Source: Roseateles sp. (lineage in GTDB: Bacteria > Pseudomonadota > Gammaproteobacteria > Burkholderiales > Burkholderiaceae_C). From it: DNA of 36,058 nucleotides. The stretch is taken from the NCBI GenBank assembly GCA_016790285.1, contig JAEUPJ010000043.1:1-36058 (forward strand), given 5' to 3'. The translations under genes were made by a program, and so were the position numbers. Positions 16,621 to 36,058 of this stretch are shown here, in pieces (within the stretch, counting starts at the first letter, position 1; every line of letters begins with the position of its first letter). The notes beneath the pieces were generated by a model, which saw nothing but the letters and a program-made list of their open reading frames with translations, ran no database searches and had not been told where the DNA came from.

Positions 16621-16625
16621 GGAAT

Positions 16626-17789: not shown

Positions 17790-17800
17790 GTGGAGATCAA

Positions 17801-19989: not shown

Positions 19990-20028
19990 GGGCGGCATCT
20001 TTCGGTTGCAGCAAGCCAACGGCGTCGA

Positions 20029-20077
20029 CTTTCGTGCGAAAGCATAAACGAACGAAAACGAAAACACAACGGCGAAA
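20029..20077. promoter_or_regulatory. CGAAA-motif cluster upstream of the permease operon (AgaR operator candidate A)
   Basis: Within 49 bases lie CTTTCGTGCGAAAG-type sequence (20029 onward), then CGAACGAAAACGAAAAC at 20049-20065, then GGCGAAAGC at 20071-20079. The reversed motif TTTTCGTTTTCGTTCG resembles the TTTCR-TTTYR-TTTY pattern reported for E. coli AgaR, although the period here is 6 rather than 5. Its position 40-90 bases before the permease start suits a repressor site. Confidence 0.5.
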
Positions 20078-20161
20078 GCACCGCCGTATGCCAAATTCCG
20101 AGGGTGTGGGGCAAATATCCATATAGGTCACCCTGCTAGCGCACTGTCAGCGGTACGGAAG

Positions 20162-20235
20162 CCTTTCGTGGCATGATTCATCGAAAGCAATTCTCATCGG
20201 TGAAAACTCTATACGAAATTAAACGAAAGAATTCG
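20162..20235. promoter_or_regulatory. Second CGAAA/TTTCG cluster, upstream of the TonB receptor (candidates B and C)
   Basis: CCTTTCGTGG at 20162 and ATCGAAAGC at 20180 form a loose inverted pair. CGAAATTAAACGAAA at 20214-20228 reads TTTCGTTTAATTTCG on the other strand, matching all but one base of the TTTCR-TTTYR-TTTY core reported for E. coli AgaR. The cluster lies about 135-205 bases before the TonB receptor start and is the better operator candidate. Binding by the local AgaR-like protein is inference. Confidence 0.5.
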
Positions 20236-20249
20236 TAGACTTGCGCCAA

Positions 20250-20305
20250 GCCGGCCCCGGAGCACTTTTGCGGGCCGGCAACCCGCACCGGGGACCCTGC
20301 CCCGG
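20250..20305 (+). promoter_or_regulatory. Two stable hairpins in the TonB-receptor leader
   Basis: GCCGGCCC (20250-20257) pairs perfectly with GGGCCGGC (20272-20279) around a 14-base loop. CCGGGG (20288-20293) pairs with CCCCGG (20300-20305) around 6 bases. Both lie between the likely promoter and the start codon at 20369. They could be part of an attenuator or mRNA-stabilising leader. No T-run follows the second hairpin, so a simple terminator is not supported. Confidence 0.35.
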
Positions 20306-20368
20306 CACCCCTTCGCAGATTGCTTCCCGCTGCCCTGACGGCAGCCACGACAACAAAGGAACCGCTCG

Positions 20369-23194
20369 ATGAGTCCTCGCCTGCAACCCCGCTTTTCCCC
20401 GCACCCGGTGACTGCGGCCGGCCTGCTGGCCCTGGCCGCACTCAGCGTCCCGGCTTCGGCCCAAGAGGCGGCCGCCAAGGCCGAAGCCGACCAGACGCTG
20501 GACCGCGTGGAAGTCACCGGCACCCGCGCCAGCCTGCAGAAGTCACTCGCCCTGAAGCGCAACGCCGCCGGCGTGCAGGACAGCATCAGCGCGACCGAAC
20601 TGGGGCGCTTCCCCGACAACAACGTGGCCGATTCGCTGAGCCACATCACCGGCGTGTCGATCTCGCGCACTGCCGGCGGCGAGGGCCAGAAGGTCAGCAT
20701 CCGCGGCCTGGGCCCGGAGTACACGATCACCACCTTCAACAACCGCCTGCTGGGCACCGACAGCGCCGGCCGCTACTTCGCCTACGACGTGCTGCCGGCC
20801 GACGTCATCAATGGCGCCGACGTCATCAAGTCCGCGCAGGCGTCCCTCATGGAAGGCGCCATCGGCGGCCTGGTGAACCTGCGCTCCGCCAGCCCCTTCG
20901 ACCAGAAGGGCCAGCGCGGGCTGCTGCGCCTGGAGGCTGACCGCAACCAGATGAGCAGCCTCAACGGCACCAAACTCTCGGGCACCTACAGCAACACCTT
21001 CGGCAACGAGGTGGGCGTGCTGCTGGGGGTGGTTTACGCCAAGCGCGACGTGCGCACCGACACGGCCGGCAACGACGGCGGCTGGAGCCGCAACCCCGCG
21101 CCGAACAAGCCGGAGCTGTTCTGGCCCTGGGGCAACACCTGGGGCGGCGCCATCGACCCCAACGGCAATGGCCAGCTGGACCTGGACGAGGAAGGCCTGA
21201 TCGGCCCGGGCCAGTTCCGCTTCGGGTCCATCATGGAGAAGAAGGAGCGCCTGGCGCTGTCGGGCAAGGTGGAATGGCGGCCCCGCAGCGACGTCAAGGT
21301 CGTCGTCGACGGATTCAAGACGCGGCTGGACTCGCCGCAGGTGGGCTACCAGCTCTCGTTCTACCCGCTGTACGCGCCGGGTCGCTGGTCCAACATGAAA
21401 ATCAACAACGGCGTGGTCACCGACTTCACGCTGGCCAACCCCGACCCCGAGATGGCGCTCAACCCGGAGCTGCTCAACAAGACCGAATACCGCGTCGTCG
21501 ACACCGCGATGTACGGCGCCAACGCGCAATGGAAGATCTCGCCCACCCTGACGCTGACCGGCGACATCTACGAGTCCACCTCCAGGCGCCATTCCGGCGG
21601 CAACGACAGCTATGTCGTGCTGCGCATGAACCAGCCCAACGTGACGCGCATCCAGCTGAACGGTTCGGCCGTGCCCGACGTGAAGACCACCTTCGCCGAC
21701 GGTCGCGACCTGCAGACCGGCCTGGCACAAGGCCTGTTCAAGGCGAGCGACTTCAACACCCACTACTACAGCCGTGCCGGCGACAACATCGACGACAAGA
21801 TCAATGGCGCCACGGCCAACCTCGACTGGAAGCTGGACCGCTTCTCCATCGACCAGCTGAAGTTCGGCCTGAGCCAGACCAACCGCAAGAAGTCGCGGGA
21901 CATGATCAACAACGCGTTCAACGCCGGCGCCGACCACTACTCCGGACAGAACGCGATCAACGTCGGCACGCTGGGCGGCAACGTCATCAACCAGACGTTC
22001 AGTCCCGATGGCTTCCTGAGCGGCGTCAGCGGCAACTTCCCGCGCAGTTTCCTGGGCTTCGATGTCGGCAACTACGCCGAGGCGCTGAAGGCCTACGACG
22101 GCAAGCCCCGCCCGGGCGGCGGCGTCTACAGCTCGACCGCTTCCGCGCCGGCCTGGAACCCGCTGGAAAGCTACCGCGTGACGGAGAAGACCACGACCGC
22201 CTTCGTGCAGGCGGACCTGGCGGGTGATGGCTGGAATGCCGACGTCGGCGTGCGCTTCGTGCGGACCAAGACCTCCTCGCAGGCCTGGGACGCCAAGCTC
22301 ACCGACATCATCGAGAACGGCGCGTTCAACTACACCGCCGTCTACGCGGCACCGACCATCCTCAATCAGGAGGCCACCTACAACTTCGCACTGCCCGCGG
22401 TCAACTTCACCTGGCTGTTCACCGACGCGCTGCAGCTGCGCCTGGGTGCCGCCAAGACCATGGCGCGGCCTTCGGTGGACAAGCTGGCGCCGTCGAGCAC
22501 GACGGCCAGCATCTCCTGGGGCGACTTCACGCAGATCTTCAGCGGCAATGCCGAACTCAAGCCCTACAGCGCCCGGCAGTACGACGCCTCGCTGGAGTGG
22601 TACTACAGCAAGGACTCGGCGCTGACCTTCGCCGTCTACCAGAAAAACATCAAGAACCAGATCACCAACCTCTGGCTGACAGGCCAGGACATCGGCGCGC
22701 CGGGTGGCCGGCTGTTCAATGTGCAGCGGCCGATCAACGGTGACAAGGCCACGGCGCGCGGCTTCGAGGTCGGCTTCCAGCACCTGTTCGACAACGGCTT
22801 CGGCGTGCGGGCGCAGTACACCCGCAACAAGTCGCGCGCCTGGGTGGGCGGCGAGGAACGGGCGCTGGAGGGCATCGCACCGGCCACCGCATCGTTCGGC
22901 GTGATCTACGAGAAGGGCCCGTGGAGCATGAGCGCCACCGCCGACCGCACCGACGCCTTCGTCACCGCCACCAACGTGCTGGGCGCCAACTTCAACGAGA
23001 CGGCCAACGCCACGACCTGGGTGACGGCGCAGGTGGCCTACGAGGTGAACCAGTGGCTGCGCATCAGCCTCGAAGGCAACAACCTGACGGACGCGGTGCA
23101 GGCACCCAAGCTGGGCAACGGCAGCATCAGCCTGCCCAATGGCTACTACCGCTACGGTCGCGCCTTCACCCTCGGCGCCTCCATCAAGTTCTGA
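20369..23194 (+). CDS. TonB-dependent outer-membrane receptor (Caulobacter/Xanthomonas type)
   Basis: This 941-residue protein has a signal peptide (ending A-S-A-Q-E) and a TonB-box-like segment V-E-V-T-G. The plug domain has L-G-R-F-P-D-N-N-V-A-D-S-L-S-H-I-T-G-V-S-I, R-T-A-G-G-E-G-Q and V-S-I-R-G-L-G-P-E-Y, a hallmark of the TIGR01782 group. A 22-strand barrel follows, ending in an aromatic-rich strand (Y-G-R-A-F-T-L-G-A-S-I-K-F). This group commonly imports oligosaccharides using proton-motive force through TonB. AAAGGA precedes the start. It begins the plus-strand operon and probably brings galactosamine-containing oligosaccharides into the periplasm. No SusD-like partner is present, which is normal in proteobacteria. 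Confidence 0.93.
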   Translation: MSPRLQPRFSPHPVTAAGLLALAALSVPASAQEAAAKAEADQTLDRVEVTGTRASLQKSLALKRNAAGVQDSISATELGRFPDNNVADSLSHITGVSISRTAGGEGQKVSIRGLGPEYTITTFNNRLLGTDSAGRYFAYDVLPADVINGADVIKSAQASLMEGAIGGLVNLRSASPFDQKGQRGLLRLEADRNQMSSLNGTKLSGTYSNTFGNEVGVLLGVVYAKRDVRTDTAGNDGGWSRNPAPNKPELFWPWGNTWGGAIDPNGNGQLDLDEEGLIGPGQFRFGSIMEKKERLALSGKVEWRPRSDVKVVVDGFKTRLDSPQVGYQLSFYPLYAPGRWSNMKINNGVVTDFTLANPDPEMALNPELLNKTEYRVVDTAMYGANAQWKISPTLTLTGDIYESTSRRHSGGNDSYVVLRMNQPNVTRIQLNGSAVPDVKTTFADGRDLQTGLAQGLFKASDFNTHYYSRAGDNIDDKINGATANLDWKLDRFSIDQLKFGLSQTNRKKSRDMINNAFNAGADHYSGQNAINVGTLGGNVINQTFSPDGFLSGVSGNFPRSFLGFDVGNYAEALKAYDGKPRPGGGVYSSTASAPAWNPLESYRVTEKTTTAFVQADLAGDGWNADVGVRFVRTKTSSQAWDAKLTDIIENGAFNYTAVYAAPTILNQEATYNFALPAVNFTWLFTDALQLRLGAAKTMARPSVDKLAPSSTTASISWGDFTQIFSGNAELKPYSARQYDASLEWYYSKDSALTFAVYQKNIKNQITNLWLTGQDIGAPGGRLFNVQRPINGDKATARGFEVGFQHLFDNGFGVRAQYTRNKSRAWVGGEERALEGIAPATASFGVIYEKGPWSMSATADRTDAFVTATNVLGANFNETANATTWVTAQVAYEVNQWLRISLEGNNLTDAVQAPKLGNGSISLPNGYYRYGRAFTLGASIKF

Positions 23195-23208
23195 TGACGT
23201 GGATGGAG

Positions 23209-23265
23209 CCCCTCGCCCAGGCGTGTCGCTCTGCATGAGGTGCGGCTGGGCGACGCCCCGAGGGG
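23209..23265 (+). repeat. Imperfect hairpin between TonB receptor and amidohydrolase genes
   Basis: CCCCTCG at 23209-23215 pairs perfectly with CGAGGGG at 23259-23265. Inner bases (AGGCGTGTCGC against GGCGACGCC) extend the stem with mismatches. There is no T-run, so it is more likely a processing or stability element than a full terminator. It could lower expression of the enzymes relative to the receptor. Confidence 0.35.
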
Positions 23266-23303
23266 ACGGCGCCCGGCCCGCAAGACCTGAATGACTGACT
23301 GAT

Positions 23304-24398
23304 ATGCGACCTCTTGTCTCCTCCGTTGCCGCCCTGCTTGTCGGGGCGGCTTTTTCCTGCGCGCAGGCCGCCGAGACGCGCTACTCGATGGCCGACTACG
23401 GTCGCGTCCAGAAGATCGACGTCCACCTGCACCTGCACGACGCCGCCCCGGCCTTCATGGAGGCCGCCCGGCGCCAGAACTTCAGGGTGTTGACCATCAA
23501 CGTCGACTACCCCGACTTCCCCCCGCTGGACGAACAGCAGCGCGTGGCCATCGCGCTGCGCCAGCAGTTTCCGCAGCAGCTCGCCTGGGCGGCCAGCTTC
23601 ACGGTGGATGGCTCCGACCAGCCCGCCTGGCTGCCCGCCACCCGCCAGCGCATCGATGCGGCGCTGAAGGCCGGCGCCGTCGGCGTGAAGGTCTGGAAGA
23701 ACATCGGCATGAACCTGAGGGGCGCCGACAAGCAGCTGGTCATGATCGACGACGCCCGCTTCGCGCCGCTGTTCGACGACTTCGCCCGGCAAGGCATCCC
23801 GCTGCTGGGCCACCAGGGCGAGCCGCACAACTGCTGGCTGCCGCTGGAGAAGATGACGGTCAACAACGACCGCGAGTACTTCAAGGCCCACCCGCAGTAC
23901 CACATGCATCTGCATCCCGAGATGCCCAGTTGGGAAGCGCAGATGGCCGCACGCGACCGCATGGTGGCGGCCCACCCGAAGCTGCGCTTCGTCGGCGTGC
24001 ACCTTGCCTCGCTGGAGCGCGACGTGGACGAACTCGCTGCCTTCCTCGACAAGTTCCCGGGTGCCGTCGTGGACGTGGCCGCGCGCATCGGCCAGTTGCA
24101 GTACCAGAGCCAACTGGACCGCGAGCGCGTGCGTCGCTTCTTCATCAAGTACCAGGACCGCGTGATGTACGGCAGCGACATGGCGCAGGCCCCCGGTCAG
24201 GACGGCGCCGCGCTCGGCAAGGAGGCCGAGGGCGTGTGGCGCATGCACTGGCGCTACTTCAACACCGCCGACAGCTTCAAGGTGTCCGACCTGGACAAGC
24301 CGGTGAAGGGCCTGGCCCTGCCGCGCGGCGTGGTGGACAAGCTCTACCGCAGCAATGCCGAACGCACCTTCCCGGGCGCCTGGGGTGGCAAGCGATGA
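23304..24398 (+). CDS. Exported amidohydrolase-superfamily protein
   Basis: This 364-residue protein has a Sec signal peptide (M-R-P-L-V-S-S-V-A-A-L-L-V-G-A-A-F-S, cut after Q-A-A). Its amidohydrolase_2-type TIM barrel has metal-binding K-I-D-V-H-L-H-L-H on strand 1, a G-V-K-V-W-K-N Lys segment, L-L-G-H-Q-G-E-P-H, F-V-G-V-H-L-A-S and V-M-Y-G-S-D-M with the catalytic Asp. The reaction cannot be read from the fold: decarboxylases, lactonases and deacylases all occur. In this locus a periplasmic removal of the N-acetyl group from an amino-sugar glycan is a testable idea, since no cytoplasmic AgaA/NagA deacetylase is present. Its stop overlaps the next start (ATGA). Confidence 0.82.
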   Translation: MRPLVSSVAALLVGAAFSCAQAAETRYSMADYGRVQKIDVHLHLHDAAPAFMEAARRQNFRVLTINVDYPDFPPLDEQQRVAIALRQQFPQQLAWAASFTVDGSDQPAWLPATRQRIDAALKAGAVGVKVWKNIGMNLRGADKQLVMIDDARFAPLFDDFARQGIPLLGHQGEPHNCWLPLEKMTVNNDREYFKAHPQYHMHLHPEMPSWEAQMAARDRMVAAHPKLRFVGVHLASLERDVDELAAFLDKFPGAVVDVAARIGQLQYQSQLDRERVRRFFIKYQDRVMYGSDMAQAPGQDGAALGKEAEGVWRMHWRYFNTADSFKVSDLDKPVKGLALPRGVVDKLYRSNAERTFPGAWGGKR

Positions 24399-27070
24399 CC
24401 GCCCGCCGCGCCTTCCTGCAGTGGCTGGGTGCCACGCCGCTGGTTACGCAGCTGCCGCTCGCGCAGGCCGCCGAGGGCAAGGGCCATGTGCGCGTGCAGG
24501 ACGCGTGCGTGTCGCTGCAGTTCGACGACCAGCTGCGGTGCCGCATCGTCAGCCTGCTCGGCAGACAGCCCGTCGCGCTGACGGCCTTCGACGCCAGCGA
24601 ACACCTGATCGTCAACGGCAAGCCGCTCAGCCGCTTCGCGTTGCAGCAGGCCGAGCCCGCCAGGGCCGCCACGCCCTTCGGCGCCGGCCAGGCGCTGCGC
24701 CTGGTCGGCCGGTCGGCGGACGGCATCGAGAAGCGCATCACCGTCACCTTGCTGGACGAGCATCCCGGTGTCGCGCTGCTGGATGTCAGCTACGTCAACA
24801 CCAGCGCCCGGCCGGTCACCGTGGATGCGTGGGTCACCGCCGCCCACCGGCTCGCCGCCGCGCCGCGACACGCTGGCGGCTGGTGGACCTACTCCGGCGC
24901 CAGCCACGCCGACCGCCGCGACTGGGTGCAGCCCGTCAAGCGCGGCTTCGAGCAGCGCAACTTCATGGGCATGAATGCGTCGGACTACGGCGGCGGCACG
25001 CCGGTCGTGAACGTCTGGCGCCGCGAGGTCGGCCTGGCCGTCGGGCACCTGGCCCTTCAACCGCAGCTTGTCGCGCTGCCCGTGAAGGCCATCGGCGATC
25101 AGGTCGACATCTCCCTGCGTGGCGACACGCCGCAGACTTTTGAGCCCGGAGCCACGCTGACGACCCCGCTCAGCTTCATCGCCGTGCACCGCGGCGACTT
25201 CTACGTGCCACTGGACCGCTACCGCCGCCTGATGGCCGCGCAGGGCCTGGCCGCGCCCGAGCCGCCGGTCAGCGCCTACGAGCCGCAGTGGTGCGCCTGG
25301 GGTTACGAGCGCGACTTCTCGCTGGAGTTCGTCCGCGCCACGCTGCCCAAGGTGCAGGAACTGGGCTTCAAGTGGGCCGTGCTGGACGACGGCTGGCAGG
25401 TCAGGACCGGCGACTGGACGCCCGACCGCGCCAAGTTCCCCCGGGGCGCCGCCGACATGAAGGCGCTGGTGGCCGACGTCCATGCCCGCGGCATGAAGGC
25501 GCGGCTGTGGATTGCGCCGCTGGCGGTCGCGCCCGGCAGCGACGAGCTGCATGACCACACCGACCTGCTGTTGCTGGACAAGGACGGCGCGGTGCAGGAT
25601 GTGACCTGGTGGAACAGCTTCTACCTGTGCCCCGCCTACGAGAAGACGCAGGCCCGGCTGGCCGCCACGATCAGGATGATCATTGGCGACTGGGGCTTCG
25701 ACGGCCTCAAGGTGGACGGCCAGCACCTGAATGGCGTGGCGCCCTGCTACAACCCGGCGCACAAGCACGCGCGGCCGCAAGAGTCGGTCGAAGCGGTCTC
25801 GGCCTTCTACAAGGTCATGCACGCCACGGCCCACGCGGCCAACCCGGAGGCGGTCGTGGAGGTCTGCCCCTGCGGCACCAGCTACGCCTTCCACAACATG
25901 CCGTTCATGGACCAGGCGCCGTCGTCCGACCCGTTGTCCAGCTGGCAGGTGCGCCACAAGGGCAAGACACTCAAGGCGCTGATGGGCCCGTGGTCGGCCT
26001 ACGCGGGCGACCACGTGGAGCTGAGCACCGGCGGGCAGGACTTCGCGTCCAGCGTGGGCATCGGCGCCGTGGTGGCCACCAAGTTCACCTGGCCGGTGGA
26101 CCCCAAGCCCAAGGACAGCTTCCTGCTGACGCCTGAGCGCGAGGCGCACTGGAAGCAGTGGGTGAATCTCTACAACAAGCAGCGCCTGGCCGAAGGCCGC
26201 TACCGCGGCGAGCTGTACGACCTGGGATTTGACAAGCCCGAGACCCACGTGGTGGAGCAGGGCGGGGTGCTGCATTACGCGTTCTACGCCGAACGCTGGG
26301 AAGGGCCGGTCACGCTGCGCGGCCTGGGCAGCGGTCGCTGGACGGTGCGCGACTCGCTGAGCGGCAAGGAACTCGGCAAGGTGACGGCTGACAAGCCCAC
26401 GCTGTCGGTGCGCTTCACGCACAGCCTGCTGATCGAAGCCCAGCCCGAGGTGCCCGACTCGCTGCCCGTCGCGTTCGCCGGCCCGGTGAAGCAGGTCGGG
26501 GCCGATGGTTTCCCGCTGGCCTCGCAGTGGGCCGATGCGCCGACCGCCTTCTTCCGCCACGATTGGCAAGGCAGGGCACTCGTCGGTCCGCAGTCCACCC
26601 GCGTGCAGCTGCTGCGCGGCGCGAGCGAGCTTTACCTGCGCTTCATTTGCAAGTACGAGGCGTTGAGCACGTATGACCACGCAGGCTCGGCCACCGACAT
26701 CTGGCCGCTGTGGGAGCGCGACGTCGTCGAAGTCTTCCTGCAGGCTCCGGGCCGCGCCGGCCTGAAGAGCTATCGCGAGGTGGAGGTGTCGCCCAACGGT
26801 CTGCTGCTGGAGATCGCCGTTGAGGCCTCGGGCAAGAAGCGCATCGCCGGCGAGAGCCGCGCGAAGGCGCGCATCGATGCCAAGGGCAAGGTGTGGACGG
26901 CGGAGCTGGCCGTGCCCATGCGTGGCGCGCAGGACGGCTGGCGCCTGAACCTGTTCCGCGTGGAAGGGCAGGGCCAGGGCCGCGTGTACTCCGCGTGGAG
27001 CCCGACGAACACCGCCACGCCCGACTTCCACGTTCCCGCCGTTTTCGGCCGCCTGATGACCTCCGCATGA
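24395..27070 (+). CDS. GH36-type alpha-galactosidase/galactosaminidase with C-terminal CBM9-like domain
   Basis: This 891-residue enzyme starts with A-R-R-A-F-L-Q-W-L-G, a Tat-like export signal. A beta-sandwich domain leads to a GH-D clan barrel: V-L-D-D-G-W-Q (about 329-335), nucleophile Asp441 in L-K-V-D-G-Q, and a probable acid/base Asp near 512 in S-S-D-P. G-D-H-V-E-L-S-T-G follows. The last 170 or so residues (W-E-R-D-V-V-E-V-F-L, Y-R-E-V-E-V-S-P-N-G) look like a CBM9/DOMON-like carbohydrate-binding domain. GH36 cleaves alpha-galactosides, and some members cleave alpha-GalNAc or alpha-GalN. Context favours an amino-sugar substrate. ATG at 24395 overlaps the previous stop. Confidence 0.86.
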   Translation: MTARRAFLQWLGATPLVTQLPLAQAAEGKGHVRVQDACVSLQFDDQLRCRIVSLLGRQPVALTAFDASEHLIVNGKPLSRFALQQAEPARAATPFGAGQALRLVGRSADGIEKRITVTLLDEHPGVALLDVSYVNTSARPVTVDAWVTAAHRLAAAPRHAGGWWTYSGASHADRRDWVQPVKRGFEQRNFMGMNASDYGGGTPVVNVWRREVGLAVGHLALQPQLVALPVKAIGDQVDISLRGDTPQTFEPGATLTTPLSFIAVHRGDFYVPLDRYRRLMAAQGLAAPEPPVSAYEPQWCAWGYERDFSLEFVRATLPKVQELGFKWAVLDDGWQVRTGDWTPDRAKFPRGAADMKALVADVHARGMKARLWIAPLAVAPGSDELHDHTDLLLLDKDGAVQDVTWWNSFYLCPAYEKTQARLAATIRMIIGDWGFDGLKVDGQHLNGVAPCYNPAHKHARPQESVEAVSAFYKVMHATAHAANPEAVVEVCPCGTSYAFHNMPFMDQAPSSDPLSSWQVRHKGKTLKALMGPWSAYAGDHVELSTGGQDFASSVGIGAVVATKFTWPVDPKPKDSFLLTPEREAHWKQWVNLYNKQRLAEGRYRGELYDLGFDKPETHVVEQGGVLHYAFYAERWEGPVTLRGLGSGRWTVRDSLSGKELGKVTADKPTLSVRFTHSLLIEAQPEVPDSLPVAFAGPVKQVGADGFPLASQWADAPTAFFRHDWQGRALVGPQSTRVQLLRGASELYLRFICKYEALSTYDHAGSATDIWPLWERDVVEVFLQAPGRAGLKSYREVEVSPNGLLLEIAVEASGKKRIAGESRAKARIDAKGKVWTAELAVPMRGAQDGWRLNLFRVEGQGQGRVYSAWSPTNTATPDFHVPAVFGRLMTSA

Positions 27071-28956
27071 AGCTGCTCGCCCTTGCCTCCCTGCTCGCCG
27101 CGTTCTCGGCGCAAGCCCAGCATTCTCTGGAAGCCACCGGCCGCTGGCAGCACAGTCCGGTCGGCAACGCCGTCACGCCGCCCATGGGCTGGTCGAGCTG
27201 GAACGCGTTCCGTGTCGATATCACCGAGCAGAAGGTGATGGATTCGGCCCAGGTCATTGTCGACTCCGGCCTGGCCGCCGTGGGCTATCGCAGCATCAAC
27301 ATCGACGACGGCTGGTGGTTGAAGCGCCGCACGTCCGACGGCCGGCTGTTGGTTCGCACGGGGCTATTCCCCAGCGCGAAACTGGGCGCCGGCAAGGACT
27401 CGTCGCTGCGGCCCTTCACCGATCGCATCCATGCGATGGGCCTGAAGGCGGGCCTGTACACCGACATCGGCCGCAACGCCTGCTCGCAGGCCTATGACGC
27501 CGACAGCCCCAACCTGCCCGAAGGCACGCATGCTGAGCGTGAGGTGGGGTTGATGGGCTTCGTGAAGCAGGATGTCGCGCTGTTCTTCGGCGAGTGGAAC
27601 TTCGACTTCCTGAAGGTGGACGGCTGCGGCCTGTCGTCTTACGGCAAGGACCGCCCGCACGTGGCTTCCGGCCAGTACCGCGAGTACAAGCCGACGATCG
27701 TTGAAGGCAGCATCAACCAGTCCGACGTCGAGGGCACCAAGAAGCTGTACGCCGGCTTGAAGCAGGCACTGCACGAAGTGCGCCCGCTTGGCGACTACAC
27801 GTTGTCGGTCTGCCTGTGGGGCACGGTCAACGTGCGCAGTTGGGGCCAGGACTACGGCTCCATGTGGCGCAGCAGCCGCGACATCTGGAAGGGCTTTGCC
27901 CAGATGGTGCACAACTTCGACACCGTCGCGACACGCGAGTTCTACGCTGGCCCCGGCCGCTGGAACGACCCCGACATGCTGGAGATCGGCAACGGCGATT
28001 TCGGCGCCGACCAGTTGCTGCAGGCGCGCACGCACATGGGCCTGTGGGCCATCGTCGCGGCGCCGCTGATGATTGGCACCGACTTGTCCAAGGCCGTCCC
28101 CGCCATCATCGACATCCTGAAGGCGCCCGAGGTGGTCGCCATCAACCAGGACCCGGCCGGCCACCAGGGCGTGCTGGCCTATGCCGACAGCGACCGCCAG
28201 ATCCTCGTGAAGACGCTGGCCGACGGCCGCAAGGCGGTGCTGCTGTTCAATCGCACGGGTGCGCCGGCAAAGTTCACGCTGACCGCCGAGCATCTGAAGA
28301 TGGACGCTGTGGCGCCCATCGCGCTGCGTGATGCGTGGGCGCGCGCCGAAGCCGGCAGCTTCACCGGCAAGCGCGAGTTCGAGCTCCAGGCCCGCGAGGC
28401 ACTGTTGTTCGCCGCCACCGGCAAGCATGTGCTGCCCCGCGGCTACTTCGTTTCGGAGCGGCCTGGCAGCGTCTACGTGGCACGTGACGGCATCCGCGCG
28501 CTGGAGCAGGACCCCGTCGTCTACCGCGCGCTGCCGTCGTGGTCCACCACCGACAACGGCGGCACCCGCCCGGCCTATGCCGGCTGGGGTGGCCCGCGTG
28601 CCGACTCGACGCCGTATGACCAGGCGCTCAGCGTGCAGCGCCAGGTCTTCCGCCATGGCGTCGGCGTCCTGGCCGACTCACGCCTGCAGGTGCAGGTGGC
28701 GCCCGGTTCGCAGCGTTTCACGGCCAAGGTCGGCGTGGACGACTCGACGCGCGGCAAGACCGCCGGCGTCAGCTTCGAGGTCTGGGGCGACGGCCGCAAG
28801 CTCGCCAGCACCGCGCCTCTCAAGTTCAACCAACCGGCGCGCGAACTCAGCGCTGACCTGCGCGGCGTGAAGCTGATCGAGCTGATCGCGCGCCAGCACG
28901 GGGCCGACACCGCAGGCCCCGTCGTCGTGACTTGGGGCGAGGCTCGCATCGAGTAG
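27067..28956 (+). CDS. GH27 alpha-galactosidase/alpha-N-acetylgalactosaminidase with NPCBM-like C-terminus
   Basis: This 629-residue protein has a Sec signal (cut after S-A-Q-A-Q). The GH27 barrel has P-P-M-G-W-S-S-W-N (38-46), I-N-I-D-D-G-W-W, nucleophile Asp185 in F-L-K-V-D-G-C-G, and R-W-N-D-P-D-M-L-E-I-G with the acid/base Asp near 303. A beta-sandwich and a C-terminal NPCBM-type module (from about 470, F-R-H-G-V-G-V and D-D-S-T-R) follow. The position that in alpha-galactosidases is usually Glu in C-E-W-G (human GLA Glu203, binding the sugar O2) is Leu250 here (S-V-C-L-W-G). This hints at altered C2 recognition, as expected for amino sugars. It is coupled to the GH36 gene by ATGA. Confidence 0.9.
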   Translation: MKLLALASLLAAFSAQAQHSLEATGRWQHSPVGNAVTPPMGWSSWNAFRVDITEQKVMDSAQVIVDSGLAAVGYRSINIDDGWWLKRRTSDGRLLVRTGLFPSAKLGAGKDSSLRPFTDRIHAMGLKAGLYTDIGRNACSQAYDADSPNLPEGTHAEREVGLMGFVKQDVALFFGEWNFDFLKVDGCGLSSYGKDRPHVASGQYREYKPTIVEGSINQSDVEGTKKLYAGLKQALHEVRPLGDYTLSVCLWGTVNVRSWGQDYGSMWRSSRDIWKGFAQMVHNFDTVATREFYAGPGRWNDPDMLEIGNGDFGADQLLQARTHMGLWAIVAAPLMIGTDLSKAVPAIIDILKAPEVVAINQDPAGHQGVLAYADSDRQILVKTLADGRKAVLLFNRTGAPAKFTLTAEHLKMDAVAPIALRDAWARAEAGSFTGKREFELQAREALLFAATGKHVLPRGYFVSERPGSVYVARDGIRALEQDPVVYRALPSWSTTDNGGTRPAYAGWGGPRADSTPYDQALSVQRQVFRHGVGVLADSRLQVQVAPGSQRFTAKVGVDDSTRGKTAGVSFEVWGDGRKLASTAPLKFNQPARELSADLRGVKLIELIARQHGADTAGPVVVTWGEARIE

Positions 28957-29112
28957 CGACCCACCACGCGCTCGCCTCCTGCATCTCCCTTTGGCACCGG
29001 TTGCGCCAGTGCCCAGGCCGCGTTCGCGCTGACGCGACCTGAATCACCCAGTCCAGCGCACTGCGTGTCCACAACTTCGGGCCTGACGCCCGACCCTCCT
29101 GAGGAGAACCTG

Positions 29113-30978
29113 ATGCACCCCATGCGTCCCTGCCCCCTGCCGCGCACCCGCAGCGTGGTCAAGCTCTCGGCCCCGCTCGGCGCGATGCTGCTGGCTGCGG
29201 TGCCTGCCACTGCGACTGCCGTGCCTGTGGTGTCGAACCCGCTGAACGCCTGCCTGGAAGTCAAGATCGACACCTGGGACATCCGCCTGGCCACATGCAA
29301 TGCCGTCGCGCTGCAGGACTTCGCGCTGACGCCCGTCGGGAGCGGCAGCAGCATCTTCACGATCCGCAATGCGCAGGCCAACCTGTGCGTGGCCGCCACC
29401 GGCGCCAGCAACGGTGCCTTCGTCGAACTGGGCACCTGCCAGCCCACGCAGGCGAGTCAGCGCTTCCAGACGGTCGCGCTGGCCGGTGGCACGACGTCGC
29501 AGCTCAAGCTCGCCGCTCACAACCTGTGCCTGACCGCGCCGGCCCAGGTGGGGCAGGTGGGCTTCTCGGTGACGACCTGCAGCACCAGCAGCACCAGCCA
29601 GGCCTGGCGGTTCGCGGCCACCGCGCCGGCGCCCACGCCCGGCCCGGCGCCTGGCCCCGCGCCGGTGGAGACCAGCTTCACCGTCAGCACCGCCGAGATT
29701 GCCAATCCCGAGCGCGGCATGTACGTCTGGGCGGCCGACAACCTGCTGCAATGGACGCAGGCCAACGCCGACTCGCAGTTCCAGCAGGGCTACCGCGTGG
29801 TCTACGCCCCCGTTCGGCTGGATGCCTATGCCAACACGACGCTGCCGGCCAGCGTGCTGACCCAGCTGACCAACGGCTTCACGATCGCACGCCGCGCGGG
29901 GTTGAAGCTGGTGCCGCGCTTCCTCTACAACTACCCCGAGAACGAGACCGAATATCAGAACGTGAAGGACGCGCCGCTGGCGCGCGTGCTGGGCCACATC
30001 GAGCAGCTCAAGCCGGTGCTGACGGCCAATGCCGACGTCATCGCCTTCCTGCAGGCCGGTTTCATCGGCGCCTGGGGCGAGTGGCACACGTCGTCCAACA
30101 ACCTCACCGCCAGCGGCCCGCGCACGCAGATCCGCGATGCGCTGCTGGCCGCGCTGCCGGCCGACCGCTTCCTGCAGCTGCGCTACCCGGCCTATCTGAT
30201 GGCCTGGGCGCCGAGCGTGCCCGGCTGGCGCGACGGCTCCGCCGCGTCGCGCGTCGGCGCGCACAACGATTGCTTCCTGGCCTCGGCCACCGACGTGGGA
30301 ACCTACAGCGAGAACACCAGCGACCGCACCAACGAGCGCAACTACATCGCGTCGTTGTCGCGCGTGGCGCCTTTCGGCGGCGAGACCTGCAACCCGGCCG
30401 ACGAGGAGAACCCGAGCCCGCGCACCACCTGTGCCGACATCCTGAACGAGGGGCGGCAGTTCAACCTGACCTATCTGAACGACAGCTACTACCGCGACAT
30501 CTTCCACGTGCGCTGGGAGCAGCAAGGCTGCATGGCCGAGGTCAAGCGCAGCATGGGCTACCGCTTCGAGTACACGACGCTGCGCCACAGCGACGCCGTG
30601 ACGGCGGGTCAATCGGGCACGCTGCTGCTGACCGTGCACAACCGCGGTTGGGCGCGCGCCTTCAACCCGCGTGCCGTGCAGCTGCTGCTGAAGCACAAGA
30701 CCAGCGGCGCCGTCGTGCGCATCGCGCTGCCGACGGCGGACCCGCGCACCTGGCTGCCCAACACGACGACCACCGTGTCAGCCGGCTTCACCGTGCCGGC
30801 GGGCACGCCCACCGGGGCCTACGACGTCTTGCTCGCGCTGCCCGACGGTGCCGCCTCGCTGGCCGGCGACGTGCGCTACAGCGTGCGCCCCGCCAACGCC
30901 GACAACAGCGCGAAGGCCCAGGCCTGGGACGCCACGCTGGGCGCCTTCCGCGCGGGCACGACGCTCACCGTCCGTTGA
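29113..30978 (+). CDS. Secreted ricin-type lectin / DUF4874 / DUF4832 protein
   Basis: This 621-residue protein has an N-terminal signal peptide (A-M-L-L-A-A-V-P-A-T-A-T-A) and a ricin-B-like region (about 35-175) with repeated L-C-V/L-C-L and Q-A-S-Q-R-F-Q/S-Q-A-W-R-F units. A Pro-Ala-Gly linker (T-P-G-P-A-P-G-P-A-P) follows. The main body begins N-P-E-R-G-M-Y, continues G-F-I-G-A-W-G-E-W-H and L-Q-L-R-Y-P, and ends in a beta-sandwich. That order matches DUF4874 followed by DUF4832. G-x-W-G-E-W is reminiscent of acid residues in glycosidase barrels, but no activity is known to me. GAGGAGAA precedes the ATG. It probably acts on the same glycan as the GH enzymes upstream. Confidence 0.78.
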   Translation: MHPMRPCPLPRTRSVVKLSAPLGAMLLAAVPATATAVPVVSNPLNACLEVKIDTWDIRLATCNAVALQDFALTPVGSGSSIFTIRNAQANLCVAATGASNGAFVELGTCQPTQASQRFQTVALAGGTTSQLKLAAHNLCLTAPAQVGQVGFSVTTCSTSSTSQAWRFAATAPAPTPGPAPGPAPVETSFTVSTAEIANPERGMYVWAADNLLQWTQANADSQFQQGYRVVYAPVRLDAYANTTLPASVLTQLTNGFTIARRAGLKLVPRFLYNYPENETEYQNVKDAPLARVLGHIEQLKPVLTANADVIAFLQAGFIGAWGEWHTSSNNLTASGPRTQIRDALLAALPADRFLQLRYPAYLMAWAPSVPGWRDGSAASRVGAHNDCFLASATDVGTYSENTSDRTNERNYIASLSRVAPFGGETCNPADEENPSPRTTCADILNEGRQFNLTYLNDSYYRDIFHVRWEQQGCMAEVKRSMGYRFEYTTLRHSDAVTAGQSGTLLLTVHNRGWARAFNPRAVQLLLKHKTSGAVVRIALPTADPRTWLPNTTTTVSAGFTVPAGTPTGAYDVLLALPDGAASLAGDVRYSVRPANADNSAKAQAWDATLGAFRAGTTLTVR

Positions 30979-30982
30979 AGCA

Positions 30983-31092
30983 CCCAATGCGTTGACATGC
31001 GCGTTCGCCAAAGCTCGTGGGGTCGGTTCGATACAGTGACCTTCAGTTAGAAGCTTTGTTTTCAGCGCGCAAATCTCAGGCGCCGCCGAACA
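30983..31092 (+). repeat. Transposon right end R1 (Tn7-like), first direct copy
   Basis: This segment aligns without gaps, at an offset of 2372 bases, with the end at 33355-33436. Three TnsB-site-like units are recognisable: CAATGCGTTGACAT (30985), GTTCGATACAGTGACC (31026-31041) and GTTAGAAGCTTTGTTTTC (31046-31063). The last 42 aligned bases share about 32. The segment ends in GCCGAACA at 31092, like GGCGCAACA at 33461. It starts 5 bases after the stop codon of the lectin-DUF gene. Unit orientation says the transposon lies to the left. Confidence 0.6.
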
Positions 31093-31219
31093 AAGTTTCG
31101 AACTGAACTCAGAGTGACGCCATGACCTGATTCAGGTCAGCCGGCACGCCAAGGTTTCTAACTTTGGACCTTGAGACTGGTTTGCTACGACCGCGTCGGA
31201 TGGTCAAAGTTATGAACAG
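31057..31219 (+). repeat. Left-type transposon end L2 candidate, overlapping R1
   Basis: TGTTTTCAGCG at 31057 resembles the L1 terminus TGTTGTCAGCC at 387. It is followed by inward-facing TnsB-like units GAACAAAGTTTCGAACTG (31088-31105) and GTCAAAGTTATGAACAG (31203-31219). If real, this is the left end of a 2.4-kb element whose right end is at 33461 and which contains only Thoeris. It overlaps the last 36 bases of R1, so terminus assignment is tentative, and no 5-bp target duplication is seen (AGCTT against CTTGG). Confidence 0.4.
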
Positions 31220-31345
31220 CGTTTCCCACGGGAAATGCCGGCGCCCGAGGGACTTGGCGACGAAGCCCGCCATGGACGCCAGCTACAGAGGATGGTTGCA
31301 GGGCTTTGCCCGGATCGCCGACACTGGCCAGTTAGGGGGCAACAC

Positions 31346-32836
31346 ATGGCAAGTAGCAAGGGTCCAAAGGGGTTCACACCCGATATCCAGGCGTTCATTG
31401 GCAGCTTTGCGGCGGACATTCGCGACGGCGCGGCGGCAATCTTCGCGGGGGCCGGGCTATCGGTTGAAAGCGGCTTTGTGAACTGGGCAGCGTTGCTGCG
31501 CGACATTGCCCACGAGCTTGGGCTCGACGTTGATCGCGAAACCAACCTAGTCGCGGTGGCTCAGTACCACCTCAATGAGCGTCGCAACCGCAGCCGGATC
31601 AACCAGAAGATCGTCGACGAGTTCAGCGCCGGCCACTCCATCAACGAAAACCACCAGATTCTGGCTAGGCTGCCGATCGCGACGTACTGGACCACCAACT
31701 ACGACGCGATGCTAGAGACGGCGCTCACGGCAGCCGGCAAGGTCGTCGACGTCAAACATTCCGTGCCGCAATTGAAGACCGTCAAGCGCGGGCGCTCGGT
31801 CATCCTCTACAAGATGCACGGCGACGCTTCGGACCCGGACAACGCGGTGCTGACGAAGGACGACTATGAAGGGTACTTTCGCGACCGAGAACCGTTCGTG
31901 GCCGCGCTGTCGGGCGACCTCGTCGCAAAGACGATGCTGTTCCTCGGCTTCAGCTTCACCGATCCCAACATCGACTACGTCCTGAGCCGCGTTAGGGTCG
32001 TGCTGCGCAGCGCTCCGAAGCAGCATTACTGCATCCTGAGGCGTGAGCAGCGCCGCTCGGGCGAGAAGGTGGAGAACTTTCAGTACCGTCAGCGCCAGCA
32101 GGACTACTTCGTGAAGGATCTCGCGCGTGTGGGCATTCACGCGCTGCTGGTCGATGAATATGGTGATGTGAAGCGCATCCTGCGGGCAATCGAGGAGCGC
32201 TACCGCAGCCGGAGCGTTTTCATCGCGGGCAGCGCTGCCGAATTCGATCCGTGGGACACGGACACGGCGAATCGCTTTCTCGAATCGCTTGCCAAGGCGC
32301 TCATTGGTAAGGGCATGGACATCGTCACCGGCTTTGGCCTCGGCGTCGGTCCTCCGATCATCGCTGGCGCCTACAGCGAGATCCTGCTTCACCCTAGCGC
32401 GCGCAGCCTGTCACAGCTGCAGGCGCATCCATTTCCAGTGGACACCAGCACCACCCCTGCCCGGCTCTCGCTCTACCAGCAGCACCGCGAGCGGATGATC
32501 GGCGCCGCGGGCGTCATCGTCCTTGTCTTCGGCAACAAGCGGGATAACTCAGGTGCGCTGGTGCCGGCAGATGGCCTGCTTGCCGAGCTGGAGATCGCGC
32601 AGGCAATGGGGCTGCACGTGATTGCTGTCGGCGCTACTGGTTGGGTAGCGAAGGAGATCGCGGCGACGCTGTCGCCGCCGCCGGGCGCCACGGAGAACTA
32701 CAGGAAGGCGTTTCTGGCCGCCAACGACGCGAAGAGCAAGCCCGACCAGATCGTGCAGGCTGTTGTGTCGATGATTGAGGAGTTCGCGAAATCAACAACT
32801 GCGGGCGCCCGCCCGCATGCAAAGGGGAGGAAGTGA
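31346..32836 (+). CDS. thsA: ThsA: Thoeris NADase effector (SIR2-STALD)
   Basis: This 496-residue two-domain protein has an N-terminal SIR2 domain with G-A-G-L-S-V-E-S-G-F (35-44), W-T-T-N-Y-D with Asn118, and Y-K-M-H-G-D with His158; the Asn and His are the expected NAD-hydrolysing residues. The C-terminal STALD/SLOG domain (about 288-480) has V-F-I-A-G-S-A, T-G-F-G-L-G-V-G and L-V-F-G-N-K-R-D. In type I Thoeris a cyclic ADP-ribose isomer made by ThsB binds the STALD domain and switches on NAD+ depletion, aborting phage infection. The start at 31346 has AGGGGG 7 bases upstream. Length matches known ThsA, and no membrane helix is present. Confidence 0.93.
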   Translation: MASSKGPKGFTPDIQAFIGSFAADIRDGAAAIFAGAGLSVESGFVNWAALLRDIAHELGLDVDRETNLVAVAQYHLNERRNRSRINQKIVDEFSAGHSINENHQILARLPIATYWTTNYDAMLETALTAAGKVVDVKHSVPQLKTVKRGRSVILYKMHGDASDPDNAVLTKDDYEGYFRDREPFVAALSGDLVAKTMLFLGFSFTDPNIDYVLSRVRVVLRSAPKQHYCILRREQRRSGEKVENFQYRQRQQDYFVKDLARVGIHALLVDEYGDVKRILRAIEERYRSRSVFIAGSAAEFDPWDTDTANRFLESLAKALIGKGMDIVTGFGLGVGPPIIAGAYSEILLHPSARSLSQLQAHPFPVDTSTTPARLSLYQQHRERMIGAAGVIVLVFGNKRDNSGALVPADGLLAELEIAQAMGLHVIAVGATGWVAKEIAATLSPPPGATENYRKAFLAANDAKSKPDQIVQAVVSMIEEFAKSTTAGARPHAKGRK

Positions 32837-32837
32837 C

Positions 32838-33314
32838 ATGGCACGGAGAGTCTTCTTTAGTTTTCATTACGAGCGTGATGTGCGGCGCATCGTGCAGATC
32901 CGAAACTCTTGGGTGGTCAGGCCAGGGGGCGATGCGCAGCCCTTCTACGACAAGGCAGAGTTTGAGGAGGCGAAGAGACGCGCCGGCGGCATCGAGCAGT
33001 GGATCGAAGAGCAGTTGAAAGGGTGCTCCGTCACGGTGGTTCTCTTCGGCGCGGAGACCTACGAGCGCGAATGGGTCAAACACGAGATCAAGCGCAGCTA
33101 TCAACTCGGCAAGGGGATCCTTGCCATCGACATCCAGGGCGTCAAAGACCCGCAGAAGGGTGTCGACGTTCAGGGTCGCAATCCGCTTCTGCACTGGAAG
33201 GCCAACGATGTTCCGTTCACGCAGCTCTACAAGACCTATAGCTGGGTGGGCGACGACGGTTATCGCAACATGCCGGCTTGGATTGAGGCTGCTGCCAAGG
33301 CCGCAGGACGGTAG
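32838..33314 (+). CDS. thsB: ThsB: Thoeris TIR-domain sensor/cyclase
   Basis: This 158-residue protein of the MTH538 TIR-like family (formerly DUF1863) has A-R-R-V-F-F-S-F-H-Y-E-R-D at the start and I-R-N-S-W-V, followed by I-E-Q-W-I-E-E-Q-L-K-G-C-S-V-T-V-V-L-F-G. E-W-V-K-H-E-I contains Glu83, the likely catalytic Glu. ThsB senses phage and makes a cyclic ADP-ribose signal from NAD+ that activates ThsA. It starts 1 base after the thsA stop, with GGGGAGG upstream, so the two form one operon. Only one thsB is present, whereas many loci have several with different phage ranges. The phage trigger is unknown. Confidence 0.93.
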   Translation: MARRVFFSFHYERDVRRIVQIRNSWVVRPGGDAQPFYDKAEFEEAKRRAGGIEQWIEEQLKGCSVTVVLFGAETYEREWVKHEIKRSYQLGKGILAIDIQGVKDPQKGVDVQGRNPLLHWKANDVPFTQLYKTYSWVGDDGYRNMPAWIEAAAKAAGR

Positions 33315-33672
33315 CCACCCCGTCTGCAATGCGGCAGCGCTGTTGGAACGCCAGATCGAAACTTTGACATCCAGCGTGGTCTTGGAGCGAAGCTCAGTTT
33401 CGATACTTTGACCGACAGTTCGAAACTTTGTTATCAAGCTCCCATCTGGGTCGGCGCAACACTTGGGAGAACCGATCTGATCCATTGGCCATAGAGCGCA
33501 AGGCAGTGACTGCAGCCACGAGCGTTCAACGAAACGGGAAAACCATTCGCCGTTGAGTCAGCGGCCCCGCAATTTGAAGTATCTATTGGGAAAACAACTG
33601 CGCTCGATGAATTGCGCTGTCTGAGCTGCCAACCCAGGAACTTGCCTCCAAATCTCTATTTAAAAGCTAACC
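33315..33672. other. Non-coding region: right end R2, then unassigned spacer
   Basis: Positions 33353-33461 hold the second transposon right end. Positions 33462-33672 carry no recognised gene or repeat and become clearly less GC-rich before tniQ (for example CTCTATTTAAAAGC at 33653). No inward-facing end was found here that could be the start of a separate element carrying tniQ. Confidence 0.55.
33353..33461 (+). repeat. Transposon right end R2 (Tn7-like), second direct copy
   Basis: Three same-facing units lie on a 21-base register: TCGAAACTTTGACAT (33356-33370), TTTCGATACTTTGACC (33398-33413) and GTTCGAAACTTTGTTATC (33418-33435). They are followed by 25 bases ending CGCAACA at 33461. Read from the outside, the terminus is TGTTGCG followed by GATAACAAAGTTTCGAAC, matching L1 and resembling the Tn7 TnsB site. 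The unit spacing and TGT...ACA termini fit Tn7-like ends. This is the best-preserved end in the window. Confidence 0.6.
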
Positions 33673-34569
33673 TTGGTCCCTCGCCCCCCAAACGACGCAT
33701 CCGTCCTCGCGCTCTTTCAAGTATTCGCCGCTCACGAGTGTGTTCTGCTAAAGCGGTCCCAAGCACTTCGTAAGTTTCTGGGTGGTCGATCGCGAACGCT
33801 TTTTCAGCCCCTTCCTTACGAACCTGCGCATATCGCTGAACAAGTCTTTCGTGGAAGATTGTCAGCCAGCGATATTATTGCGAATCACAGCTTGGCCAAC
33901 GTGTTGGCTCTCTGTCACGAAGATGCAGAAAAGCCGTCCTACATTAATTCCCTGAAGTTTGCTGAAATGCTTCCTATCAGCAGGGGGGCGACGACTATGC
34001 GCAGCTGTCCTAGCTGTGTTGCAGAAGATCTCAAAAACTACGGTTTCGGATACTGGCGGGCGAGCCACCAATGGTCGGTCCTTCGCCACTGCATCATGCA
34101 CAAAAAGGCTCTGCAGCATGGCTGCGGCCGTTGCGGCAGGTGGAAGCTGGTGAGGACTGGCTGGAGCGAACGTCCAGAAAGTCCATGTTCAGTCTGCGGT
34201 TCCAGGGACAAGATTGCCCTAGAAGTGCCGCAGTCGGACGGCTATGCAGAGTACGTTCGCATCTTCCAGCAGGCTCGGTGGAAGCCCGAAGCTCTATCGC
34301 GGGATGCGCTGAACCGTCTGCGACTCAAGGTTGCACGCCTGCGGCTGGGCGCTTCCAGGCCGACGATCTACGACTTTTTTCAGATGCGCGGGGACAAATC
34401 TATTGCCCTTCGGAATGCGTTGGGCTGTGGCAAATTGACGCCAGCTGAGGTAGAGGCCCTGCATTCCGGCCAATATGTCGGCCCGCGCCCCACCGCCTAC
34501 ATCGCGGGTTTTGCCTATCTGAAGTGGGTTTTGCGATCAGCTGCCAATGACATGCTGCGGCCAAGCTAG
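33673..34569 (+). CDS. tniQ: TniQ/TnsD-family target-selection protein
   Basis: This 298-residue protein has an N-terminal V-P-R-P-P-N-D and the TniQ zinc ribbon: C-P-S-C (112-115) with Y-W-R-A-S-H-Q-W (127-134) and R-H-C-I-M-H (139-144). A second Cys set follows (C-G-R-C at 151-154, P-C-S-V-C at 171-175) with a helical tail. TniQ proteins link a target-binding factor to the AAA+ regulator TnsC in Tn7-like and Tn5053-like transposons. A TTG start at 33673 is used because a stop lies 12 bases upstream and the family begins here; no clear Shine-Dalgarno is seen. It lies just outside R2 and upstream of tnsA, an unusual position. Confidence 0.85.
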   Translation: MVPRPPNDASVLALFQVFAAHECVLLKRSQALRKFLGGRSRTLFQPLPYEPAHIAEQVFRGRLSASDIIANHSLANVLALCHEDAEKPSYINSLKFAEMLPISRGATTMRSCPSCVAEDLKNYGFGYWRASHQWSVLRHCIMHKKALQHGCGRCGRWKLVRTGWSERPESPCSVCGSRDKIALEVPQSDGYAEYVRIFQQARWKPEALSRDALNRLRLKVARLRLGASRPTIYDFFQMRGDKSIALRNALGCGKLTPAEVEALHSGQYVGPRPTAYIAGFAYLKWVLRSAANDMLRPS

Positions 34570-35055
34570 GGCTGCGGAACGAATGGCAGGAAGCGCCAAA
34601 CTTGATTCTTAATCTGCACGCCATTGGAACAAATGGCCGCTTTCCCCGCTGCTATTGGATAGTTTCAGGCAGCTTCTACCAATAGTGTGACATCCCGGGC
34701 GGGGCGCAAGTTCGCTCCCTTGTTGCCTGGTTCTCCTACTATCATGCGCCTCGCCGCAATGCCGCTCGTCGCGTTATTTGCGGAGTCGCGCATGGAGATT
34801 TGCGCGCATTCGCAGCAAAGGATCTAGAGAGCCAGAAAGACAAAAAGCGCATCACCCCTTCGAGTAACGCGCCCCTGCCTGGTCGAATGTTGCCACTCTA
34901 CCGCTGTAGCAAGCCAAGGGTAGCACAACCGGGACAGTTGGCGCAGCTTTGCCAACAATTTTTCGGGCGATGCCCGTATCCGAATGCCACTTGGACCAGT
35001 GCCTCGCTCACTGAGCGTTCGTTCGCCTTATCTCGGGCCGTCCCCGCGGACTCCC
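34570..35055. other. Gap between tniQ and tnsA with an inverted repeat
   Basis: No gene is supported in these 486 bases. CTATTGG (34652-34658) and CCAATAG (34679-34685) form a 7-bp inverted repeat with a 20-base loop, possibly a terminator-like hairpin after tniQ but without a T-run. TGTGACATCCC follows directly. A short frame around 34800-34980 shows no family features. The true start of tnsA may lie within the last 75 bases. Confidence 0.4.
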
Positions 35056-35917
35056 ATGACCGCAGAGAAGCTGCGCAAGCTGATACGTCTGGGGTTCGGC
35101 CAGGGCCGATTTCAACAGTACCAGCCATGGCTCCGCGTACGTCGCAGCTTCTCCTCTCCTGTCTCGAAGCAGCATGTCTTCCAGATTCCCGGCCAAGGAC
35201 GGCACGCGCACTTGCTGTCCGGACTTGAGCACAGCTTTGCCCTGCTTGCGGGCTATCTCGGAGCAATCGAGGTTCGCGAGCAAGTGCCCGTCCATCCGGA
35301 ACCGGCTCGCCATCCTGGATTCGACAGCCAGGGGCGATATCCGATCCGTGGCAGCGATGCCATCTTGCCTGGCCTTCACGACATCGCCAAGGACGCAGGC
35401 ATTGATCCGGGCCGATACCCAGGCACGGCATTGACGTTCGTCATGACGACTGATCTGGTGCTGTTGGTCAAGGATGGCGTCCAGCACAAGCTGGTCTATT
35501 GGCCCGTCAAGCCAAGCGCAGATCTGTGGGGGCCTGGTGGAGTCCGTCGGCGAGAACGGCTGGAGCTTGAAAGGCGTCACGCCGCGCTATCTGGCGCTGC
35601 GTTCGAACTGATGACGGACGAGACAGTCTCTAGCGAATTCCTCTTCAACCTTCGAGCGCATAAGCCGTTCTCGGAAGATCTGGAGCGGCTCAAGACTACC
35701 GAGACACTACAGCGATTTGCTGAGCGATTCAACGACAGTCGCGGCGGCAAGCTCGGCGAGGTGTGGCGAGCAGCTGGGGCGTTCGCTGGAATACACGCAT
35801 TGGATGAGCAGCGCAGGCTCTTCGACGTAGCGGTCTGGCTGGGACTGCTGGATGTACATCTGAGCAAGCCGCTAGGGCCGCATCTGCCGATTTGGTGGGG
35901 AGGATGGGAGCAGCGAA
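35056..35917 (+). pseudogene. tnsA: TnsA-like transposon endonuclease, 3' end cut by IS66 insertion
   Basis: About 287 codons remain. The N-terminal part has G-Q-G-R-F-Q-Q-Y-Q-P-W-L-R-V, typical of TnsA. The restriction-like triad is visible: Glu58 in G-L-E-H-S-F, Asp133 in T-T-D-L-V-L and Lys152 in W-P-V-K-P-S, with V-R-E-Q-V-P after the second helix. TnsA cuts the 5' ends of Tn7-like transposons and pairs with TnsB. The helical C-terminal domain is nearly complete before the IS66 terminus replaces the native end at 35918; the fused frame stops at 35943. ATG 35056 is chosen; ATG 34984 in frame is possible. tnsB and tnsC would be expected downstream, beyond the window. Confidence 0.82.
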
Positions 35918-36058
35918 GTAAGCGTCCGGCAATCCCATCTTGAGAACGGTCGTCGCAGCGATAACGATGCTGTCCAGTTAAGCAAATAGCTGGACACGAT
36001 GGAAGCCGAACAGAGTCGCAAGCGCAGTCGCTACAGCCGTGAGTTGAAGGCCCGGATC
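35918..36058 (+). mobile_element. IS66-family element, right-boundary copy (partial, terminal 141 bp)
   Basis: The element begins GTAAGCGTCCGGC at 35918, inside the end of tnsA, and is the exact reverse complement of positions 1-141. It runs off the window. The 8 bases before it (GCAGCGAA) do not match those inside the left copy, so each copy is an independent insertion rather than one composite unit as far as can be seen. Because both window edges stop at the same base of this repeat, the window is probably an assembled contig that ends where a multi-copy element begins. Confidence 0.7.
35999..36058 (+). CDS. tnpA: IS66-type TnpA, N-terminal 20 codons (partial)
   Basis: ATG at 35999 opens the same 20-codon start as at the left edge (M-E-A-E-Q-S-R-K-R-S-R-Y-S-R-E-L-K-A-R-I), truncated by the window end. 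The basic N-terminus and Y-S-x-E-x-K-A pattern suit the helix-turn-helix of IS66 TnpA. The function is inferred to be accessory in transposition. Confidence 0.6.
   Translation, partial: MEAEQSRKRSRYSRELKARI

Follow-up and report, generated by a model that had tools for sequence, protein, structure and literature searches.

Class 1 integrons are tni-defective Tn402-type elements that keep Tn7-superfamily ends without a full transposition module, and their mobilisation in trans has been proposed; mini-Tn7 vectors are man-made constructs in which ends without a transposase are served by proteins supplied in trans. Here we describe a stretch of Roseateles sp. DNA (the window; 36,058 bp, the entire contig G000:C81 of a draft genome) in which the two-gene defence system Thoeris lies between a left and a right end of Tn7-like type, L2 and R2, together referred to as the Thoeris element. 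Class 1 integrons differ from it in belonging to another transposase branch, in their long integron cargo and in carrying no Thoeris. Thoeris, like many other defence systems, is already known as Tn7-like cargo, and it is listed 61 times in Tn7-like transposons by Benler et al. 2021 (PMC8649781), in a survey anchored on tnsB as the minimal requirement. In the parts of that survey considered here, the elements resemble the Thoeris element in having arrays of transposase-site-like repeats at both ends but, in contrast to these tnsB-based elements, none of tnsB, tnsA, tnsC and tniQ was detected between the two ends of the Thoeris element. The same source mentions insertion inside or next to existing elements, giving several left and right ends. 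Bacterial miniature inverted-repeat transposable elements (MITEs), described as ~50-500 bp long (PMC10969869), likewise have ends without a transposase and use proteins in trans, whereas the Thoeris unit measures 2.4 kb and holds a two-gene defence operon. The literature matches listed, a set with most subscription papers outside its scope, included no natural Tn7-like element whose sole content is a defence system.

Read from left to right, the window contains the ends L1 and R1, then L2, thsA, thsB and R2, followed by tniQ, tnsA and an insertion sequence (IS). The ends are built from copies of the unit AGTTCGAAACTTTGTT, in minus orientation in L1 and L2 and in plus orientation in R1 and R2. 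L2 (31078..31223, plus strand) begins with the tip AGGCGCC-GCCGAACA and has units at 31089, 31148 and 31203, and R2 (33336..33443, plus strand) has units at 33353, 33397 and 33417 and the tip TGTTATCA-AGCTCCC, which reaches 33444, one base more, if a doubled A counts as an insertion. The L2-R2 pair spans 2,366 bp. L1 (404..549, plus strand; tip AGGAAGC-TGATAACA; units at 415, 474 and 528), the left end of an upstream element, shares with L2 a unit spacing of 59 and 54-55 bp, and the spacing of 44 and 20 in R2 is that of the right end of Limnohabitans sp. T6-20. R1 (30963..31071, plus strand), 30.7 kb after L1, is a degenerate right end with a clear unit at 31045, a weak one at 31025 and a third that appears in the alignment alone, near 30981. 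L2 starts 6 nt past R1, the spacer between the two tips being AATCTC (31072..31077).

The initial annotation, which overlooked L2, had placed Thoeris between R1 and R2 as direct copies of one right end with three units each. Both are right-type ends and collinear, their outer units (31045 and 33417) being offset by 2,372 bp, and the count of three units holds for R2 but only loosely for R1; with 50% identity across the aligned end, R1 and R2 are diverged relatives within one end family, and the true bracket is L2/R2. Recombination or capture could have left Thoeris between R1 and R2 without an element of its own, as their shared orientation and their distance would allow, but the interval between them contains L2, whose tip and unit spacing are those of other left ends, and we regard such an origin as very improbable.

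The four ends were scored with a matrix of 25 units from other genomes, applied as three-unit arrays with fixed spacing; as these units were located via motifs seeded in the window, the test is independent in data but not in discovery. The scores were 67.1 bits for R2, 60.3 for L2, 49.6 for L1 and 19.3 for R1, R2 being the best-conserved end of the window, whereas the maximum across 20 first-order Markov random windows was 1.9 bits. Scores of 66-83 bits with the end models hold by construction, because the four window ends were in the models. The tip pattern TGATAACANWGYTTNKAA occurred six times, in two of the family's 399 genomes, and once in the backward control, and single-unit matches elsewhere in the genome of the window were at chance level (3/9; control 5).

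The two genes fill nearly all of the segment between the ends, as had been proposed, and domain and structure matches confirm both. The gene thsA (31346..32836, plus strand; the frame is open from 31235 and the start at 31346 was taken from the onset of homology) encodes a ThsA with SIR2 and STALD (SLOG) domains that matches a solved ThsA with an E value of 7e-128 (Pfam, PADLOC and solved structures), and the adjacent thsB (32838..33314, plus strand) encodes a ThsB with a TIR-like domain (ThsB_TIR; Pfam, PADLOC and solved Thoeris structures). On these matches the pair is a Thoeris operon, with predicted anti-phage activity.

Using 13 transposition proteins as tblastn queries (eight Tns/TniQ-related ones from T6-20 and the window, and five from genome G187), no tns gene was found between L2 and R2. 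As the autonomous set of tnsA, tnsB, tnsC and tniQ was thus not detected between the ends, the Thoeris element is not classed as an autonomous Tn7-like transposon, and since L2 and R2 form a proper left-right pair, a non-autonomous element is preferred. We consider it somewhat probable that positions 31078-33443 represent a non-autonomous Tn7-like transposon with Thoeris as its sole cargo, mobilised in trans and inserted in tandem beside R1. The 2.4-kb unit would then have moved as such and, without tns genes of its own, would rely on a related autonomous element to supply TnsA, TnsB, TnsC and a TniQ. Of the options in the initial annotation, the best is that of a minimal non-autonomous element served by Tns proteins in trans, but its basis has changed from R1/R2 to the L2/R2 pair.

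Ends of the same family were found around elements with full tns sets in other genomes. In T6-20 (G264, NZ_NERW01000001.1) they bound a 23.6-kb element with tnsA, tnsB, tnsC and two tniQ genes; TnsC and both TniQ proteins were assigned by Pfam, and TnsA and TnsB had no Pfam or NCBIfam match, the TnsB matching Tn7 TnsB with an E value of 3.9e-15 and the TnsA being 30% identical to the TnsA of the window. An element in a Comamonadaceae metagenome-assembled genome (MAG; G402) has tnsA, tnsB, tnsC and tniQ inside such ends, with unequal flanks. The alignments take in eight left ends and seven right ends. Both L2 and R2 have several inverted transposase-site-like units and belong to the end family of a full-tns element and, since the same end types bound tnsABC-tniQ elements elsewhere, a Tn7-like assignment is supported. 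The link to a Tn7-like transposon drawn in the initial annotation is thus borne out; it had also named two findings that would speak against it, and both went the other way, in that the units do accompany tnsABC loci elsewhere and the ends occupy several different places in related genomes, not fixed positions.

The back-to-back junction of a right end and a left end seen at R1 and L2 recurs in T6-20, where another right end, 87% identical over 309 bp, lies directly upstream of the element in the layout R'-TATAA-L...R-TATAA, the two ends being 5 bp apart with the duplication as spacer. This layout fixes the tip positions and a target duplication of 5 bp. The T6-20 tandem and the Thoeris element share tips, unit, spacing and a right end directly before a left end, but the T6-20 element differs in its autonomous gene set, its length, its position 5' of a gene for a metallo-beta-lactamase (MBL)-fold hydrolase and its exact 5-bp duplications. 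The flanks of L and R also agree in G400 (TATAA) and in a Roseateles MAG (ACAAT), with L and R on different contigs there. At the Thoeris element, the last five bases of the spacer, ATCTC, and the five bases after R2, ATCTG (33444..33448), match at four of five positions. In the proposed mechanism, the unit would have inserted directly beside R1 of another element, giving R1 and L2 back to back as in T6-20, and the ATCTC/ATCTG pair would fit such an insertion, subject to the length of the R2 tip. A 5-bp duplication AAGCT around L1 and R2 was rejected, since other family members place the tips seven bases further out. An empty-site allele was not seen, the flanks 142-403 and 33449-33690 matching only stretches of the window itself in a comparison that covered the compared loci, with no separate search of other genomes.

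Two further genomes bear on whether such units move. A Thoeris system with 91% identity is present in G408 (contig C12), of the same genus, away from the sugar-use cluster of that genome on C29. The identity spans window positions 31260-33407, taking in both genes together with the inner half of R2. It stops within the second unit, at which point the G408 right end is broken and fused at TTTCGAA to an end piece in inverted orientation (L214:12257-12324), a structure that recombination between two ends inside the unit could have produced. Other ThsA matches in the family sample, of which G408 is not part, had at most 43% identity over most of the protein, and one partial match had 50%. The second genome, G404, holds a 17,543-bp element (G404:C12:212069-229611; L249, L250) with left and right ends of the family and an exact CGCGC on both sides, in which tblastn with the same 13 proteins found no tns gene. 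Joining its flanks minus one CGCGC leaves 541 codons open across the site, so that the frame of a target gene can be restored; the piece on one side matches DUF418 and that on the other no family. This element either moved in trans or lost its tns genes after insertion. Six of its open reading frames (ORFs) were scanned, others, among them one of 621 aa, being left out of the scan; four gave E2-ThiF-JAB, patatin-like, 2,040-aa AAA and IstB-like proteins, and two had no match. It is possible that this cargo is an uncatalogued defence cluster.

Several observations weigh against a Thoeris unit that moved on its own. The duplication around L2/R2 is 4/5 at best and is lost with an R2 tip extended by one base, whereas the 5-bp duplications in T6-20 and G404 are exact. 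A DNA search of the 20 same-genus genomes did not reveal the intact small unit a second time, G408 providing the only relative, and the left end of G408 is only 57% identical to L2 and lies 1.25 kb upstream of its Thoeris. As the shared identity covers Thoeris and the inner part of R2 and the left ends differ, Thoeris and R2 have travelled together, and L2 has its support in the window only. Elements here also decay, as seen from the tniQ and tnsA next door and from G306, where a TnsB fragment (56% identical to T6-20 TnsB over 87 aa) lies beside the end. The imperfect duplication and a left end supported in one genome leave room for decay in place, in which a larger autonomous Tn7-like element with Thoeris as cargo would have inserted next to R1 and lost its tns genes, the 2.4-kb relic never having moved as a small unit. 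The degenerate state of R1 and the TnsB fragment of G306 agree with such a history, as does the distribution of TnsA: one of the six same-genus genomes in the family sample, the source genome, has a TnsA match, and three of the other five, G030, G156 and G306, carry ends without a TnsA hit. We nevertheless judge decay in place unlikely, though it deserves serious weight, because no other end of the window is as well conserved as R2 and because the G404 element was inserted precisely and is now without detected tns genes, although a later loss could have occurred there too.

The neighbouring genes raise another alternative. Both tniQ and tnsA lie to the right of the cassette, where the initial annotation had put them, and both are outside R2: a tniQ-like gene (33673..34569, plus strand, TTG start) and a tnsA-like gene (34984..35943, plus strand) whose product matches Tn7 TnsA. 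They are followed by an IS-like end (35918..36058, plus strand; named by eye), 141 bp that are repeated inverted at 1-141 and at the end of contig C82, so that the contig is bounded by it on both sides. Thoeris could be the cargo of a bigger element that starts at L2 (or L1), includes tniQ and tnsA and finishes with a right end past the IS, with R2 and R1 as internal leftovers. The contig does stop within the IS, tniQ and tnsA read rightward as tnsABC do toward R in T6-20, and between R2 and the contig end no left end scored above 0.6 bits except for a cross-match to R2 itself. We find a bigger element improbable, since R2 is well conserved and outscores every other end of the window, and the window TnsA is only 30% identical to that of T6-20, whose ends resemble those of the window.

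For the non-autonomous Thoeris element, tniQ and tnsA beyond R2 could be a part of the helper hidden past the IS, or a remnant of another element. TnsA and TniQ searches of the source genome matched only these two genes, and its TnsB search used PF09299, which does not match the TnsB of T6-20, so a cognate TnsB in the draft genome may escape it. A tnsB/ATPase module on contig C68 was rejected as the cognate partner, as its TnsB-like protein shares a 91-aa piece (30%) with G187 TnsB and has no match to T6-20 TnsB (E up to 10), and the best end-like units on C68 reach 10.7 bits. This module (L047:12133-15702; G000:C68) consists of a 679-aa ORF above the Mu-transpos_C cut-off and then an ATPase-like ORF, and is apparently unrelated to the ends described here.

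Upstream, the L1-R1 stretch combines two features. Its right half, from ~14822, corresponds to a sugar-use cluster in six of the 20 same-genus genomes, the match ending at 30974-30982, the onset of R1, in four of the six and at 28956 in two. The flanking 5-mers of L1 and R1, CCGAT and AATCT, differ. In view of this mismatch and of a right half native to those six genomes, L1-R1 may not be a simple transposed unit; possible origins are an element into which a chromosomal cluster was taken up and recombination between elements. The cluster in the window (14822-30980) holds genes for DeoR, a kinase, SIS, a GatZ-like protein, a TonB receptor and galactosidases, and is syntenic in those relatives. 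A 25-nt right-tip-like piece (376-400; 4.4 bits, E 0.016 in 519 bases) lies a few bases before L1 and perhaps belongs to a third element, situated to the left of the other two.

In six genomes (G264, G399, G400, G402, G030 and G154) right tips of the family lie immediately 5' of a gene for an MBL-fold hydrolase, and in three others (G306, G408 and G156) immediately 5' of an OsmC-like gene; the gene families were checked in G264, G030, G306 and G408 and read by eye in the other five. Examples of these sites 5' of the start codon are L093:9157-9808, L256:19117-19764, L259:17491-17951 and L262:10225-10696. R2 sits at neither site, and neither "hydrolase" nor "OsmC" appears as a word in the main text of PMC10293859. 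At the OsmC site of G156 (G156:C13:306314-311623; L253), a right end, an inverted second right end and a left end are packed into 5.3 kb that also contain two transposase-like ORFs, forming another multi-end array. The left-end model matched 13 of 373 relatives, eight of them among the 20 same-genus genomes (source genome included). Several of all the matches to this model are in fact right ends; weak matches in G032, G447, G450 and G479 were left aside. A scan of genome contigs gave 27 stretches, of which four (L102, L103, L105 and L124) pass the three-unit filter, L112 and L126 have a good tip and a weaker second unit, and the remaining 21 were dropped as probable chance; none of 15 viral contigs passed the filter. 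Among plasmids, TnsA had matches in 22 records, all with <60% identity, and TniQ in one.

If our interpretation is true, a pair of defence genes enclosed by left and right ends of its own, with no other content, would make a natural defence transposon of very small size, and the locus suggests that defence genes may ride as very small cargo dependent on the enzymes of another transposon. The junctions of a right end with a left end bear on how insertion beside an existing element evades target immunity, which is described in PMC11406308 and should oppose neighbouring insertions. We propose, tentatively and at less than even confidence, that the genus harbours a regular, overlooked population of Tn7-like elements free of tns genes, each carrying a single defence or other module between TnsB-site ends, moved in trans and stacked back to back beside earlier right ends. 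If this population is real, surveys that start from tnsB would miss such elements, and a search for end arrays without tnsB would reveal whether small units of this kind are a vehicle for the spread of defence genes.

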